Positions 870-25,219 of a DNA stretch of 35,177 nt are shown here, piece after piece (the stretch's first letter is position 1; every line of letters starts with the position of its first letter). The notes under the pieces were generated by a model. That model did not search any database, had not been told where the DNA came from, and was given only the letters and a program-made list of their open reading frames with translations. The translations under genes were made by a program, and so were the position numbers. The DNA lies in NCBI GenBank assembly GCA_947581645.1, contig CANPVF010000121.1:1-35177 (forward strand), read 5' to 3'. The stretch comes from Candidatus Caribbeanibacter nitroreducens (GTDB taxonomy: Bacteria; Gemmatimonadota; Gemmatimonadetes; Palauibacterales; Palauibacteraceae).

Positions 870-1541
870 ATGACGGACGTGCCCACGCTGCTGGCCATCG
901 CCGCGTCGGCGGTGGCGGTGATCGGGCTCGGGCTGGCGGCCGTCGCCTGGACCTCGCTCCGCCGCCGGCGCTGGTCCGCCGGTGCCCTGGCCTCGCTCTC
1001 GGGACTGGTGCTCCTGCTGCTGGCCGTGCTGGGGTGGGGTGTGGTGCTCGGGACACGCGGCTACCGGGCGCTCACCCGGGAAGAGGTGGCCGCGTCGGTC
1101 ACGACCCGGTCCACGGGCCCCCGGTCCTTCCGGGCGGTGGTCGAGAGGCCCGGCTCCCGGCCCGATACCTTCAGGATCGCCGGCGACCAGCTGTACGTGG
1201 ACGCCCACGTGCTCCGGTGGCAGCCCTGGGTGAACGTCCTCGGCGTCCACACCGGGTACCGCCTCACCCGTATCGGAGGACGCTATCGATCGCTCGAGGC
1301 GGAGCGGGACGCCGAGCGGACGGTCTACGGCCTGTCGGAGGCGCCGCCCCTGGACCTCCTGGAGACCCTCGACCGCCTTCCGGTGGTCGGCCGCGTCGTG
1401 GACGCCACCTACGGCTCCGGCTCGTTCGTGCCGGCCGACGACGGGGGGAGCTACGAGGTGCGGGTCACGACGAGCGGTCTCCTGATCCGGAGCGCCCCGG
1501 ACACCGCGGACGGCGACGGATCCGCCGGGGGGCTGTGGTGA
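870..1541 (+). CDS. Uncharacterised two-TM membrane protein (family often mislabelled 'cation/multidrug efflux pump')
   Basis: Protein of 223 residues. Two hydrophobic helices lie near the N-terminus (about 7-28 and 40-63), followed by a soluble, probably periplasmic, domain. The soluble part contains YRALTREEVAASV, a 'GDQLYVDAHVLRWQPWVNVLG' segment and DATYGSGSFVPAD. This order matches a conserved family in proteobacteria whose database names claim an efflux pump, but two helices and a small domain do not make a pump, so I assign no function. The ATG at 870 is the first plausible start; its Shine-Dalgarno is weak. The final TGA overlaps the next gene's GTG by 4 nt (GTGA, 1538-1541). Translation is therefore probably coupled to the L,D-transpeptidase, which suggests a cell-envelope role. 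Confidence 0.75.
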   Translation: MTDVPTLLAIAASAVAVIGLGLAAVAWTSLRRRRWSAGALASLSGLVLLLLAVLGWGVVLGTRGYRALTREEVAASVTTRSTGPRSFRAVVERPGSRPDTFRIAGDQLYVDAHVLRWQPWVNVLGVHTGYRLTRIGGRYRSLEAERDAERTVYGLSEAPPLDLLETLDRLPVVGRVVDATYGSGSFVPADDGGSYEVRVTTSGLLIRSAPDTADGDGSAGGLW

Positions 1542-3286
1542 GACGTCGGCTTGCCGTGCTGCTGTCGGTGGCGGCCGCCGCGGTGCTGTCGGCGTCCGCG
1601 GCCTCGCCGGCGGCGGCCCAGGATCGCGCCGTCACCGAGCGGCTGCAGGAGCGGATCCGCCTGCGCCTGGAGGGGGAGCCCGAAACGGCGGCGGCGCGGG
1701 AACCGACGCTGCGGTCGGACGGTCGCCGGATCCAGGCGACCCGGTCGCTGCGGCGGTTCTACGGCGAGCGGGTGCACCTCCCCGCGTGGGTCACCGCCGA
1801 CGGGCGCGTGCGCCCCGGGGCTCGAGAGATGCTGGCCGGGCTGCGCTCGGCGCGAGAGCACGGCCTCCCGCCGGACGACTACCACGCGGCGCGCATCGAG
1901 TCCCTCCTCTCCGAGCTGGACGCCGGTCGCGAGGGCGCCGGAGCGAGGTTCCCGGATGCCGACACAGATCGGCGGCTGCGCCTGCTGGCGGAGCTCGACC
2001 TTCTGCTCACCGATGCCTTCCTGAGCTACGGGTCGCACCTGGTCTCCGGCCGCGTGGACCCCCGCAGCATCGACCCGCTGTGGACCGTGAACGGGCGCGA
2101 GAGGAACATGGCGGCCCTCCTCGCCCGCACGCTGGAGCAGGGCCGGTCGCCCCGGGCGGCGCTCGCGGAGCTGGCTCCCCGGCATCCGGGGTACGCCCGC
2201 CTGCAGGAGGCGCTGACCGAATACCGGCGGATGGCGGCGGCCGGGGGATGGCCGACGGTGCCCGGGGGACCGGCGCTCCGGGCAGGGGACGCGGGACCGA
2301 GAGTGGCGGACCTGGGCCGGCGGCTGGCGGCGTCCGGCGAACTGTCGGCGGACGACGGGAAGGACGACGCGGTGTCCGACACGGTGTTCGGCGACGCCCT
2401 GGACGCGGCGGTTCGGAGCTTCCAGCGGCGCCACGGCCTGGAGGCCGACGGGATCGTGGGCGAGGCCACGCTCGGCGCCCTGAACATCCCCGCCGAGAGC
2501 CGGGTGCGGCAGATCGAGCGCAACCTGGAGCGGTGGCGATGGCTCCCGGCCGAGCTGGGCGAGACGCACCTCCGGGTCAACATCGCCGACTTCGGGCTGG
2601 AGGTGGTGGAGGGCGACTCCACCGTGCTCTCCATGCGGGCCGTCGTCGGGAGGGACTACCGCCAGACGCCGGTGTTCAGCGACACGATGCGGTACGTGGT
2701 GCTCAATCCGACGTGGAACGTGCCCCGATCCATCGCGGCCCGGGACATCCTGCCGCGGCTGCGCGAGTCGGTGTCGTACCTGGAGGAGCAGGGCATGGTG
2801 GTCTACGACGGATGGAGCCCCGACGCCCGACCCGTGGACCCGTCGGCGGTGGACTGGTCGCGCCTGAGCGCGGACTCGCTCCCGTACCGCTTCGTGCAGC
2901 GCCCGGGGCCCCTCAACGCGCTGGGGCGCGTCAAGTTCATGTTCCCCAATCAGTTCGCCGTCTACATCCACGACAGCCCGGCCCGGTCGCTGTTCGGCCG
3001 GAGCGTGCGCAGCTTCAGCTCGGGATGCATACGGGTGGAGCGCCCCCTGGAGCTGCTGGACTACGTGCTCCGCGGGAGCGAGGAGTGGTCGCCGGCGAAG
3101 CTCCGCGGCGCCCTGGAGACCGGCCGCGAGCAGACCATCCGGCTGCCCCGGGAGCTCCCGGTGCACATCGAGTACTGGACGGCCTGGGTCCCCGAGGAGG
3201 ACGGGGCCGTCCACTTCCGCCCGGACGTGTACGGCCGGGACGCCCGCCTGGCGTCGGCGCTGGAGGCCGAGCCCCCGGGCGACTGA
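1538..3286 (+). CDS. YcbB/LdtD-type L,D-transpeptidase, periplasmic
   Basis: Forms 3-3 (mDAP-mDAP) peptidoglycan cross-links in the periplasm, going by its family. The 582-residue protein starts with a signal peptide (VRRRLAVLLSV...AAAQ, about 1-28). A helical scaffold follows, then a peptidoglycan-binding_1 domain (about 247-317, with AVRSFQRRHGLEADGIVGEATL) and a YkuD catalytic domain (about 343-530). The active-site motif is complete: His478 in YIHDSPA and SSGCIRV with catalytic Cys497. A large capping insert between PTWNVPRSIAARDILP and the motif is typical of YcbB rather than small Ldt enzymes, and the length is close to E. coli YcbB (about 615). The reading frame is open back to 764, but the residues before 1538 lack domain character; the GTG at 1538 begins the signal peptide and overlaps the upstream stop (GTGA). 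It converges with mscS, leaving 10 bp between the stops. Confidence 0.93.
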   Translation: MRRRLAVLLSVAAAAVLSASAASPAAAQDRAVTERLQERIRLRLEGEPETAAAREPTLRSDGRRIQATRSLRRFYGERVHLPAWVTADGRVRPGAREMLAGLRSAREHGLPPDDYHAARIESLLSELDAGREGAGARFPDADTDRRLRLLAELDLLLTDAFLSYGSHLVSGRVDPRSIDPLWTVNGRERNMAALLARTLEQGRSPRAALAELAPRHPGYARLQEALTEYRRMAAAGGWPTVPGGPALRAGDAGPRVADLGRRLAASGELSADDGKDDAVSDTVFGDALDAAVRSFQRRHGLEADGIVGEATLGALNIPAESRVRQIERNLERWRWLPAELGETHLRVNIADFGLEVVEGDSTVLSMRAVVGRDYRQTPVFSDTMRYVVLNPTWNVPRSIAARDILPRLRESVSYLEEQGMVVYDGWSPDARPVDPSAVDWSRLSADSLPYRFVQRPGPLNALGRVKFMFPNQFAVYIHDSPARSLFGRSVRSFSSGCIRVERPLELLDYVLRGSEEWSPAKLRGALETGREQTIRLPRELPVHIEYWTAWVPEEDGAVHFRPDVYGRDARLASALEAEPPGD

Positions 3287-3296
3287 CCGCGGGCCC

Positions 3297-4286
3297 TCAG
3301 CCCGGGCGCTCTCCCGGGTCCGGCTCCGTCTCCGCGGAGACGTCCCGCCCCCCGGCGCCGGGCTCCTCTCCCCCGTCCCCGGCGATCCGGATGGGGAACG
3401 GCTCCGTGGCGGAGCCCACGTAGAGCGTCCGGTGCGGGAAGGGGATCTCGATGCCCTCCTCGTCGAATCGCCCCTTGATGTCCTCGTGAATCGTGTTCTT
3501 CAGCTCCAGCCAGTTCTCGCGCGTGGCCCACACCCGGAAGCTGAAGTTGAGCGCCGACTCGCCGTAGGCGTCGAACAGCACCACGGGCTCGGGCTCCATG
3601 AGGCACAGGGGGTTCTCGCTGGCTACGTCCAGGAGCACCCGGCGAACGTGCTCGACGTCCTCCTTGTAGGCGACGCCCACGGCGACGTCGAGGCGGCGGA
3701 TCGGGTACCGGGTGATGTTGGTGACCTCGGTCTTGATGATGGACTCGTTGGGGATCCGGACGAACTTGTTGTCGAAGGTCCGGAGCTTGACCGAGAGCAT
3801 GTCGATGGACTGCACCCGGCCCACCGTGGTCCCGATCTGGATGATGTCGTCCACCATGAACGGCTGCTCCGCCATGAGGAAGAAGCCGCTGATGATGTTG
3901 GAGACGCTGGTCTGGGCGGCGAAGCCCAGGGCGATTCCCATGATCCCCGCCGCGCCCAGGAGCGGCGCGATCCCGAACCCCAGCTCGTCCAGGAACCAGA
4001 CGACGAGGACGGCCGCGCCGACGTAGAAGAAGAGCTTGCCGGCGATCATGCCCCGCTGCTGGGAGTCGACGCCGGCCACCCACCGCCGGAGCGCCCGGGA
4101 GAGGGCCAGGACGATGGGGAAGCCCAGGACGACGATCAGGGCCGCCCGCAGGATGGGCCCGAAGCCCTCGGTGAGCACCAGCTGCCGCAGGCTCTCCAGC
4201 GGCGAGGTCGGCGCCTGAGCCCCCTCGGTGGCGGCCTCCTGCAGCGCCAGCAGCAGAGGCGCCGTGACGGACGAGACGACGTGCAT
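3297..4286 (-). CDS. MscS-family small-conductance mechanosensitive channel
   Basis: Inner-membrane channel that opens under membrane tension and releases solutes on osmotic downshock. The protein has 329 residues (E. coli MscS has 286). Three TM helices are visible: about 44-66, 83-100 and the pore helix from 105, with its glycine/alanine-rich GAAGIMGIALGFAAQTSVSNIISG. A beta domain follows (DIIQIGTTVGRVQSIDMLSVKLRTFDNKFVRIPN), then the alpha/beta domain, ending near IPFPHRTLYV. The C-terminal 35 residues are acidic and low complexity. The ATG at 4286 shares one base with the TGA of the upstream DUF432 gene (TGATG), so it is the last gene of a coupled operon running methyltransferase, DUF432, MscS. 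Identity as an MscS channel is firm; the subfamily is not resolved. Confidence 0.93.
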   Translation of the reverse strand: MHVVSSVTAPLLLALQEAATEGAQAPTSPLESLRQLVLTEGFGPILRAALIVVLGFPIVLALSRALRRWVAGVDSQQRGMIAGKLFFYVGAAVLVVWFLDELGFGIAPLLGAAGIMGIALGFAAQTSVSNIISGFFLMAEQPFMVDDIIQIGTTVGRVQSIDMLSVKLRTFDNKFVRIPNESIIKTEVTNITRYPIRRLDVAVGVAYKEDVEHVRRVLLDVASENPLCLMEPEPVVLFDAYGESALNFSFRVWATRENWLELKNTIHEDIKGRFDEEGIEIPFPHRTLYVGSATEPFPIRIAGDGGEEPGAGGRDVSAETEPDPGERPG

Positions 4287-5101
4287 CAGATTCCCCCCAG
4301 GCCCGAGAGCGTCCGCAGTCGGCTGAAGGTGCGTGTCCGGAAGCTCTTCGTGAGCGGGGTCCGGGGCGGCGTCACCCTGCGGGCACCCGAGCCGGCCTCC
4401 TCCGGTGCTCTGCCGGCGACGTCGATGTCGCTGCCCTCCTTCTCGCCGCGGTAGCGCACGCGGGTCACGTCGGCCCAGAGCCCCTGCTCCGTCCGGAAGA
4501 CGGAGAGGTGGGCCACCCGGAGCGCGATCTTCTCGACCTCCAGCTCGTCCTCGGAGCGGTTGGAGAGGTCCAGCGGGCAGACGGCCCGGTGCGGGGCGAA
4601 GACGTCCGGCCCCACGCTCCGGCGGGCCGAGGTGGGGAGCCAGTAGCACAGCTCCCCGTCGGTGAACTCGCCCCACCAGGTGTCGGAGAGGACCACCGAC
4701 GGCACCTCGGTCAGCGTGACGTCCTCCTCGCCTCCGGTGGCCTCCACGCGGGCCCACAGGGGGACGCGCACGTAGATGCGGGCGCCGGAGCGCGGAAGGA
4801 GGCGGAAGGAGAGCTCAGGCTTCACCACCAGGGTCCGCGGTGGGAAGACCGGCGAGAGCCGCAGCCCCCCGGTCCCCTCCGGCACCGGCCAGCGCACCCA
4901 GCCCTCCTCGTCCGACGGCGGCTCCCGGGGGGGCTCCACGTCCGTGCTGGCCCAGTCTCCGGAGGCGTGGGCGAGCCAGATCTCGCCGGCGCGGGAACGG
5001 GCCCAGAGCGTGAGCGGACCGATCTCGATCGACGTCGCTGCCCCGGGACGGAGCTCGTGGCTCCCCCAGGGCGCGTCCTGCTCCGCCGGCGTCCCGCTCA
5101 C
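4286..5101 (-). CDS. DUF432 family protein
   Basis: Protein of 271 residues without signal peptide or TM helix, predicted cytoplasmic and mainly beta-strand. The fold shows in alternating segments such as ATSIEIGPLTLWARS, ARIYVRVPLWARVEA, VVLSDTWWGEFTDGELCYWLPTSARR and CPLDLSNRSEDELEVEKIALRVAHLSVF. The 'DTWWGEFTDGELCYWL' and 'CPLDLSNRSEDELEVEKI' blocks, the length and the position directly before an mscS gene match DUF432 (PF04254 as I remember it), a family of unknown function that often neighbours MscS channels. An upstream ATG at 5155 is possible, but the GTG at 5101 overlaps the methyltransferase stop (GTGA) and has GGAG 8 nt upstream, so I chose it. The stop shares a base with the mscS start. 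A role in channel regulation is plausible but not shown by the sequence. Confidence 0.8.
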   Translation of the reverse strand: MSGTPAEQDAPWGSHELRPGAATSIEIGPLTLWARSRAGEIWLAHASGDWASTDVEPPREPPSDEEGWVRWPVPEGTGGLRLSPVFPPRTLVVKPELSFRLLPRSGARIYVRVPLWARVEATGGEEDVTLTEVPSVVLSDTWWGEFTDGELCYWLPTSARRSVGPDVFAPHRAVCPLDLSNRSEDELEVEKIALRVAHLSVFRTEQGLWADVTRVRYRGEKEGSDIDVAGRAPEEAGSGARRVTPPRTPLTKSFRTRTFSRLRTLSGLGGI

Positions 5102-6006
5102 GGCTGCCACTCCACCAGAGAGGAGTCGGAGTTCGCCACGCGCCGGCCGCTCCACGCCCCCCCGGCGGTCCGGCCCTCCATCCGGGCGCCGGAGACCGTG
5201 CCCGCCAGGGTCGTGGCCTCGCCGTCGGCCGCCGAGTCGGCGACGACCTCCAGACGCACGCTGTCACCGGCCACACGGGCCTCCCGCACGCGAAGCCCGC
5301 CGGGTCGGGTCACCGTCGCCCGGAGCTCGGCGAACTTCTGATCGATCGTCAGCCGGAGCCTCTCGCCCGCCGCGGGCGCGCCGGACACCGAGAGCTCCCA
5401 GGTGCCGCCGACCCGGGCGGGTACGCGCCACAGGTAGAGGGTCGCGTGTCCCCCGAGCCCGCCGGGCGTCTGCGAGACGCTGTCGGCCGCCCATTCCTCC
5501 ATGTCGAAGTCGTGGGCGACGATCCGGGCGCCGGGGCGCAGCTGTCGGAAGAGCATCGCCTCGAGCTTCGCCATGGTCCGGGGGAGCAGGTAGAGGGTCA
5601 CCACGGTGGCCGGCGCGAGGTCCACCTCGAACAGGTCGCCGCGAACCATGCGGACCCGGTCCCCTACGCCCTCGCCGGCCGCCCGCTGGCGGGCCTCGGC
5701 CACGAGGCTCGAATCCAGCTCCACGCCGAGGCCGGCAGCGCCGTAGCGGCTGGCGGCGGTGACCACGATGCGGCCGTCGCCGGAGCCCAGGTCGTAGACG
5801 GTGTCCCGGCCCGAGACGTCGGCCATCTCCAGCATCTCGGCCACGACCTCCGGCGGCGTGGGCACGAACGGGTAGTCGGCGCCGTCCGTCCCCCGCCCGT
5901 CGGTGCCCTGGGCAGCGACGGTGGAGGGGAGCGCGACGAGCGCCAGGAGCGCCGCGGCGAGGGCCGCCGGTGCCGCTCCTCGGGATGTCGTCGGACGCCT
6001 CGTCAT
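5098..6006 (-). CDS. Exported class I SAM-dependent methyltransferase (FAM173-like core) with C-terminal beta domain
   Basis: The 302-residue protein begins with a Sec-type signal peptide (MTRRPTTSRG, then an Ala/Leu core, ending TVAAQ near residue 33). The Rossmann core follows: motif I YDLGSGDGR (71-79), acidic loop GVELD (94-98), GDLFEVDL, VVTLYLLPRTMAKL and GARIVAHDFDMEEW. The DLGSGDGR...YLLP...HDFDM pattern resembles the eukaryotic FAM173/ATPSCKMT lysine methyltransferases; this is inference from motif memory. After about residue 185 a beta-rich domain starts (ATLYLWRVPARVGGTWEL) and ends in SSLVEWQP. The ATG at 6006 has GGAG 9 nt upstream. The gene is first in the operon with DUF432 and mscS. 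A paralog with the same architecture lies at 24233-25219. A SAM enzyme with an export signal is odd, since SAM is cytoplasmic. The substrate is unknown. Confidence 0.88.
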   Translation of the reverse strand: MTRRPTTSRGAAPAALAAALLALVALPSTVAAQGTDGRGTDGADYPFVPTPPEVVAEMLEMADVSGRDTVYDLGSGDGRIVVTAASRYGAAGLGVELDSSLVAEARQRAAGEGVGDRVRMVRGDLFEVDLAPATVVTLYLLPRTMAKLEAMLFRQLRPGARIVAHDFDMEEWAADSVSQTPGGLGGHATLYLWRVPARVGGTWELSVSGAPAAGERLRLTIDQKFAELRATVTRPGGLRVREARVAGDSVRLEVVADSAADGEATTLAGTVSGARMEGRTAGGAWSGRRVANSDSSLVEWQP

Positions 6007-24232: not shown

Positions 24233-25219
24233 TTACCCCTCCCACTCCAGGATGGAGGCGTCGGTGTCCCCGGTGCGGCGGGCGGACCAGGCCTCGCCCG
24301 CGGCGGATCGCCCCTGCATCCGCTCCCCGTCCACGGTCCCCCGCAGGCGGAGCGTCTCGCCATCGGCCACGAGTCGGATCTCCACACTGTCGGCGTGGAC
24401 CCGTGCCGAGGACACGGTGTCGATCCCGCCGCCGACCGCCGCCGCCCGAAGCTCCTGGAACCGCTGGTCGATCCGGACGCGTCCGCTTTCGCCGCCCGGC
24501 AGCCTGAACGCCCAGGTCCCGCCCACGTCGGCCGGTATCACCCACAGGTAGAGGGTGGCCCGGCCGGTCCCGGCGTCCACGTCGGGGAGGAGCGTGTCCG
24601 CGGCGGTCGTCCGGTCGCCGAACTCCTCCCGGCCGTCGAAGAGCCCGTCCGGGAGCTGCACTCCGCCTCGCTTCCGGACGGTCACCACGCTGTCGGCGTC
24701 CCACTCCCCCATGGAGAAGTCGTGGGCCACCACGCGGTTCCCGGGCTCCATCTCCCGCAGGATCCGGGGGCGGAGCCGCTCGTTCATGCCCGGGAACAGG
24801 TACAGGGTGAGGACGGTGGCCGGGCGGATGTCGGTCTCGAACAGGTCCCCCCGGACGAAGCGGACCAGGCTGTCGACGCCGGCCTCCCGGGCGTGGCGAC
24901 GGGAGCGGGCCACCAGGCCCGAGTCCAGCTCCACGCCCAGGCCGCGGCTCCCGTACAGCCGCGCCGCGGTGATCGGCAGGCGGCCGTCTCCCGATCCCAG
25001 GTCGTAGACCGTGTCGCGGGCCGTGATCCCCGCCAGCTCCAGCATCTCCGTCACGACGCCCATGGGCGTGGGGACGTAGGGCGCGCCGGGCTCCTTCGCG
25101 TCCGGGTCCTCCTGTGCCGGAGCCCCCGGAGGGGCCGCCAGGGCCAGCAGGAGGACGAGGAGGGACGGGAGCAGGAAGCGGCGGAGAGCAGGGCGGCGGT
25201 CGGGGCGTGGTTCGCGCAT
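24233..25219 (-). CDS. Second exported SAM-dependent methyltransferase, paralog of the one at 5098-6006
   Basis: The 328-residue protein opens with a basic region (MREPRPDRRPALRRF), a Leu-rich core and a GAPAQ cleavage site near residue 36. The Rossmann core shows YVPTPMGVVTEMLELAGITARDTV, YDLGSGDGR (72-80), LGVELDSGLVARSRRHA, VRGDLFETDIRPATVLTLYLFPGM and NRVVAHDFSMGEWDADSV. It then has an insert of about 30 residues (LPDGLFDGREEFGDRTTAADT) absent from the other copy, and the same C-terminal beta domain (ATLYLWVIPADVGGTWAF ... SILEWEG). Motif order and wording are shared with the first copy from the 'VPTP' segment to the final EW, so they are true paralogs. The ATG at 25219 is a weak start by Shine-Dalgarno but begins the signal peptide. 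It is divergent from the PLP-enzyme gene, 67 bp away. Substrate unknown; the same puzzle of SAM supply applies. Confidence 0.88.
   Translation of the reverse strand: MREPRPDRRPALRRFLLPSLLVLLLALAAPPGAPAQEDPDAKEPGAPYVPTPMGVVTEMLELAGITARDTVYDLGSGDGRLPITAARLYGSRGLGVELDSGLVARSRRHAREAGVDSLVRFVRGDLFETDIRPATVLTLYLFPGMNERLRPRILREMEPGNRVVAHDFSMGEWDADSVVTVRKRGGVQLPDGLFDGREEFGDRTTAADTLLPDVDAGTGRATLYLWVIPADVGGTWAFRLPGGESGRVRIDQRFQELRAAAVGGGIDTVSSARVHADSVEIRLVADGETLRLRGTVDGERMQGRSAAGEAWSARRTGDTDASILEWEG

Follow-up and report, generated by a model that had tools for sequence, protein, structure and literature searches.

Exported aKMT-like methyltransferases are genetically paired with a LAT-type exchanger and may form an extracytoplasmic SAM-dependent methylation system

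Bacterial SAM chemistry is treated as cytoplasmic, and the best-described relatives of the protein family studied here lack export signals of the kind reported below. The broad-specificity protein lysine methyltransferase aKMT (aKMT4) of Sulfolobus islandicus (PDB 5FA8, 5FAD and 5JWJ) has the same core as this family, including VPTP, DLGxGDGR and NxxLRP-type motifs, but is without a signal peptide, a C-terminal barrel or a known exchanger partner. The related structure 5BXY from Salinibacter ruber consists of a 158-residue core only; its bound SAH shows cofactor binding in this branch. No functional test of it was found in open-licence papers, and 'RNA methyltransferase' is the name under which it was deposited. 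FAM173A and FAM173B (ANT-KMT and ATPSc-KMT), distant aKMT homologues that are likewise membrane-associated and lysine-specific (PMC9006661), have mitochondrial targets, an uncleaved targeting region and a membrane anchor, and show no cleavable signal, lipobox or exchanger pairing. FAM173B, whose anchor stays uncleaved, is explicitly termed a distant homologue of aKMT (PMC9006661), and its aspartate mutant D94A is reported to be inactive (PMC5828452). On the transport side, the LAT- and BasC-type exchangers (SLC7 light chains and bacterial BasC, 6F2G) share their full fold, with its GxGIF and GGW regions, with the partner protein described here. Precedents for the cargo proposed below are Sam3 and Gap4, amino-acid permeases that carry SAM (PMC5177730), and SLC25A26, whose SAM/SAH exchange serves a second compartment (PMC9239748); unlike the bacterial partner, these are fungal or mitochondrial and are not paired with a secreted methyltransferase.

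We analyzed a stretch of 35,177 nt from Candidatus Caribbeanibacter nitroreducens, referred to as the window. On its minus strand, ORF reading, paralogue alignment and structure matches identified a class I SAM methyltransferase of 302 aa with an aKMT-like core (copy 1; 5098..6006), running from an ATG at 6006 to a TGA that ends at 5098; translation of the plus strand over 5098–6006 gives an unrelated frame. The initial annotation had placed a methyltransferase with a signal peptide, an intact core marked by four motifs and a C-terminal beta domain at this position, and each of these elements was recovered. The protein begins with MTRRPTTSRGAAPAALAAALLALVALPSTVAAQ, in which a charged n-region (MTRRPTTSRG) and an h-region spanning approximately A11–P27 are followed by a Sec/SPI cleavage site, V30-A31-A32↓Q33 (signal peptide VAA↓Q, aa 1–32; 5911..6006, minus strand). 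In all five intact host paralogues the signal peptide terminates in AxA↓Q, and P27, A32 and Q33 are invariant among them, a pattern that a hydrophobic stretch arising by chance would not show. The ATG is preceded by GGAG. A gene start downstream of the signal peptide, looked for as a refutation of export, was rejected, there being no in-frame start codon from the end of the signal peptide up to the conserved YPFVPTP at the beginning of the core. By our own rules, applied to the n-, h- and c-regions and to an AxA site conserved in relatives, the prediction that the window protein is Sec-exported is well supported.

Behind the signal peptide, a short linker (aa 33–44, within 5098..6006, minus strand) leads into the methyltransferase core (approximately aa 45–194; 5425..5874, minus strand), which contains VPTP, DLGSGDGR, VELD, GDLF, TLYLLP and HDFDM. 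The motifs named in the initial annotation map to residues 71–79 (YDLGSGDGR), 94–98 (GVELD), 139–142 (YLLP) and 165–169 (HDFDM). A Rossmann-like fold with a DxGxGxG motif I and an acidic motif II places the protein in class I, and none of 60 family members departs from D72, G74, G76, D77, G78 or R79. In an AlphaFold2 model built from an alignment of 60 relatives, residues 51–290 mostly reached pLDDT >90. This model matches SAH-bound 5BXY (54% identity over the core, TM-score 0.90) and aKMT (41% identity to 5FAD, TM-score 0.91), with 5BXY and aKMT (5FA8/5FAD) far ahead of all other solved structures. The fold itself is already known. The closest relative of 5BXY among the sequences compared (L112, 77%) has both a signal peptide and an adjacent exchanger.

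All 60 members scanned matched NCBIfam NF041081 (archaeal protein-lysine N-methyltransferase), and no other family came near that number. The window copy scored 110 bits (E = 7.5e-32) on this model, below its curated cut-off of 200; judged by sequence, it is an aKMT homologue, with aKMT as its best named match, outside the aKMT equivalog family. Protein-lysine specificity is thus suggested by homology only, at a score below the cut-off. The resemblance to FAM173/ATPSCKMT enzymes proposed in the initial annotation held in part: kinship through the aKMT/FAM173 group appears real but remote, whereas the N-termini differ in kind, with a cleavable signal or lipobox in the present family and an uncleaved anchor in FAM173. 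The uncleaved anchor and the targeting domain ahead of the methyltransferase that characterize FAM173 proteins, which we compared by description (PMC9006661), are absent from the window protein. Outside the SAM site, the family conserves VPTP and NxxLRP. While its SAM motifs are intact, the window copy deviates at near-invariant positions elsewhere, including F120M, N145M, R149E and P150A; with N145, R149 and P150 lost, its specificity may have shifted, or the copy may be inactive or decaying. The C-terminal domain (approximately aa 195–302; 5098..5424, minus strand) is predicted to form an 8-strand lipocalin/FABP-like beta-barrel, with its strands at residues 201–292 of the model. It had no Pfam match above chance, and its fold matches to lipocalin/FABP-like barrels were weak (E = 0.03 or worse).

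Clustering of ORFs around relatives of this gene revealed a recurrent partner. An exchanger of ∼460 aa was present at 53 of 94 methyltransferase loci, the next neighbour family at only 8. It belongs to the AA_permease_2 / L-type amino acid transporters, its nearest solved structures being xCT-consensus, BasC, b0,+AT and LAT1, and it forms a distinct clade, mostly scoring 590–694 bits on its own profile compared with ≤349 for other LATs of the window's phylum. Summed over four clade samples, this exchanger was found in 54/68 methyltransferase-positive but in only 1/774 negative genomes. The individual counts were 5/10 versus 0/288 in the window's phylum, 13/15 versus 0/131 in Cyanobacteria, 2/2 versus 0/196 in Bacteroidia and 34/41 versus 1/159 in Burkholderiales (Fisher P = 1e-8, 8e-17, 5e-5 and 3e-30, respectively, values that overstate independence because the genomes are related). 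Across the 298 genomes of the phylum, the profile recovered five proteins at 590–631 bits, all in methyltransferase-positive genomes and adjacent to the methyltransferase gene, ahead of the next LAT at 349 bits; two of the five, from G086 and G298, were absent from the profile's own sequences. Where no exchanger was adjacent (32 genomes), 16 genomes had one elsewhere at >600 bits and one more at 439 bits. The pair also occurs on plasmids, and on a conjugative Agrobacterium plasmid the two genes overlap. Methyltransferase and exchanger distances were correlated over 52 loci (Mantel r = 0.42, 0/2000 permutations), although shared ancestry alone could account for this. The export signal and the genetic pairing with the exchanger are both well supported. 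In the annotated records that we read, the methyltransferase genes go only by 'class I SAM-dependent methyltransferase', 'methyltransferase domain-containing protein' or 'hypothetical protein', and the neighbour mostly 'amino acid permease'.

The host genome itself encodes an exchanger of this clade on contig C160 (615 bits), where it lies directly upstream of a sister methyltransferase copy. Neither of the two copies in the window adjoins an exchanger gene in our gene list.

The most informative loci for the role of the exchanger were found in Burkholderiales, where seven genomes that we read directly (G740, G784, G706, G754, G699, G862 and G825; loci L210–L218) carry head-to-tail arrays of 5–14 exported methyltransferase genes with one exchanger at the end. 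Copy numbers from the search itself are at-least values in this order, with at most 12 candidates scored per genome, and the runs in G706 and G754 are interrupted by a few other genes. Copies within one array are only 28–61% identical (median 38–43%). One-to-one orthologues nevertheless follow in the same order between species, at 84–96% identity for G706 and G754 and 67–79% for G740 and G784, so each copy is kept for its own reason, which suggests many separate targets. That many divergent enzymes come with a single exchanger is, in turn, the strongest reason to think that its cargo is their common co-substrate pair, SAM/SAH, rather than each product. In or beside several of the arrays, on the opposite strand, we also observed a gene for a membrane protein whose C-terminal domain resembles spermidine synthase (Pfam Spermine_synth; L210 8394–10160, plus; L211 7158–8786, minus; L216 4409–6067, minus; L217 9772–11439, plus), with a further case at L083 (4194–5873, minus). 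It is a possible further component of the system.

We therefore propose an extracytoplasmic SAM-dependent methylation system composed of exported methyltransferases and a dedicated LAT-type SAM/SAH exchanger, and assign this reading a probability of roughly 0.5. The window enzyme would be exported by Sec to the periplasm, while the exchanger in the inner membrane would move SAM out and bring SAH, or a related amino acid, back. The exported enzymes would then use this SAM on envelope targets, most likely protein lysines, perhaps aided in target recognition by the C-terminal barrel. In the host, the single exchanger on C160 would serve five diverged paralogues, two of them in the window. We infer the cargo, the direction of transport, the lysine specificity and the role of the barrel. 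The broader version, in which one to more than 12 secreted or lipid-anchored aKMT-like enzymes modify envelope molecules in many phyla at the expense of SAM exported by the LAT-type protein, which also returns SAH, falls slightly short of even odds in our judgement. In TM6 of all 38 linked exchangers, GGW[NS] is immediately followed by an acidic residue (Glu or Asp), and most of them have Leu at the position of the gating Phe252 of LAT1; both features are compatible with a larger cationic substrate. Against the model, 14 of the 68 methyltransferase-positive genomes have no exchanger, both window copies sit apart from one, and the window copy has lost the near-invariant residues named above.

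The initial annotation had objected to the export reading that SAM, made in the cytoplasm, would need a source outside it. Pairing with the exchanger offers a possible answer and turns the puzzle into the question of whether the exchanger carries SAM and SAH. We found no report of periplasmic SAM, or of SAM transport by a LAT-type protein, in the open-licence literature, and likewise no description of this exported enzyme family, the arrays that it forms or the linked exchanger, the matches being unrelated (e.g. pathogen effector work). SAM export, if shown, would represent a new kind of system. As far as we found, a widespread exported SAM enzyme with a co-inherited transporter would open an unexplored methylation compartment, and the pairing suggests an unstudied chemical modification of molecules outside the cell membrane.

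The exchanger could instead handle the substrate or product of the reaction, with an amino acid or small amine being methylated outside the cell and SAM coming from lysed cells or chance leakage. By homology, LAT proteins exchange amino acids, and many class I methyltransferases have small-molecule targets, yet up to 14 methyltransferases of ∼40% identity per exchanger fit a shared co-substrate better, and the nearest characterized relatives act on proteins (PMC9006661). We regard this explanation as unlikely, albeit the strongest of the competitors. Less likely again is SAM scavenging, in which the exported fold would bind SAM/SAH in the periplasm and supply an importer with it. Such a role would fit the SAH-bound crystal of a close relative, the amino-acid-transporter ancestry of the exchanger and the import of SAM by yeast Sam3 and Candida Gap4 (PMC5177730); however, both the size and diversity of the arrays that share one transporter and the conservation of VPTP and NxxLRP outside the SAM site suggest that different targets are modified catalytically, rather than binding alone. 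That the enzymes methylate the exchanger itself, as FAM173A does membrane carriers, is very improbable. The strict gene pairing and the methylation of ANT and ATP synthase subunit c by FAM173A and FAM173B (PMC9006661) would be in line with this, but no lysine is conserved in the 38 exchangers (53% Lys in the best column), and up to 14 divergent methyltransferases per exchanger would be odd for such an arrangement.

Export as assumed by the proposed methylation system was not confined to the host. Of 80 relatives from a scan of GTDB, 77 had an N-terminal export signal, and exported forms spanned Pseudomonadota, Bacteroidota, Cyanobacteriota, Acidobacteriota, Aminicenantota, Planctomycetota, Myxococcota and others. 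Signals were called by our own rules and by eye; the regular expressions for lipobox and Tat signals are loose, and we relied on the sequences as read by eye. Nearly all cyanobacterial forms have a lipobox (xAGC, xTGC or ASC) followed by a long flexible linker, lipoboxes also occur in relatives from other groups, and some signals are Tat-like in appearance. The initial annotation had considered that the signal peptide might really be an anchor that keeps the enzyme on the inner side of the membrane, in which case the hydrophobic N-terminus would stay uncleaved, comparable to the membrane anchor of FAM173. The kinship to the aKMT/FAM173 group speaks for this, but we consider it highly unlikely, given the brief h-region and subsequent AxA↓Q of every host copy, the cleavable signals, lipoboxes and long linkers of relatives, the free variation of the sequence between cleavage site and core, and the plain absence of the hydrophobic segment from cytoplasmic relatives. 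The latter include a small clade (L116, L130 and L137) that has the C-terminal barrel but neither a signal peptide nor an exchanger in the genome, a natural cytoplasmic control. Together with a relative from G208, of the same class, these cytoplasmic forms had an exchanger in 0/4 cases, compared with 64/77 for exported ones. The G208 protein (L078 7773–9287, minus) is fused behind a long N-terminal region, and its gene adjoins asparagine-synthase-like and PqqD-like genes (named by eye), an arrangement that recalls a peptide-modification cluster.

Within the host, the five intact copies lie on four contigs (two on C121 and one each on C131, C160 and C88) and form one clade (support 97/93), of which the window copy is the longest branch. 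Close relatives were absent from 34 genomes of the same family and 8 of the same order, and present in 10 of 298 genomes of the phylum, host included. Given the single clade, the most likely history, as read from the sequences, is an expansion after one acquisition; contamination as the source of the gene is made less likely by the spread of these copies over four contigs and by the similar GC of the contigs sampled. Fragments at the edges of contigs C5 and C75 (L053 and L054) nearly duplicate the genes on C88 and C160 and represent either strain variants or further copies. The second copy in the window (24233..25219, minus strand; 328 aa, signal peptide GAPA↓Q), 18 kb from copy 1, shares the two-domain layout of the latter apart from an insert ahead of the barrel, and lies ∼460 bases upstream of a beta-lactamase-family serine hydrolase gene on the same strand.

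Copy 1 is followed by a DUF432-family gene (4286..5101, minus strand). The GTG start codon of this gene shares bases with the stop codon of copy 1 (GTGA), and the two genes are probably co-transcribed. A MscS-type mechanosensitive channel gene (3297..4286, minus strand) in turn overlaps the DUF432 gene as the third member of the run. This arrangement was not seen at the other loci examined. DUF432 and MscS found no support as general partners: a DUF432 homologue occurred in only 1 of 59 relatives searched, and MscS was present at only one other methyltransferase locus, where it was non-adjacent. Beyond the run, the plus strand encodes an L,D-transpeptidase with scaffold, peptidoglycan-binding and YkuD domains (1535–3286).
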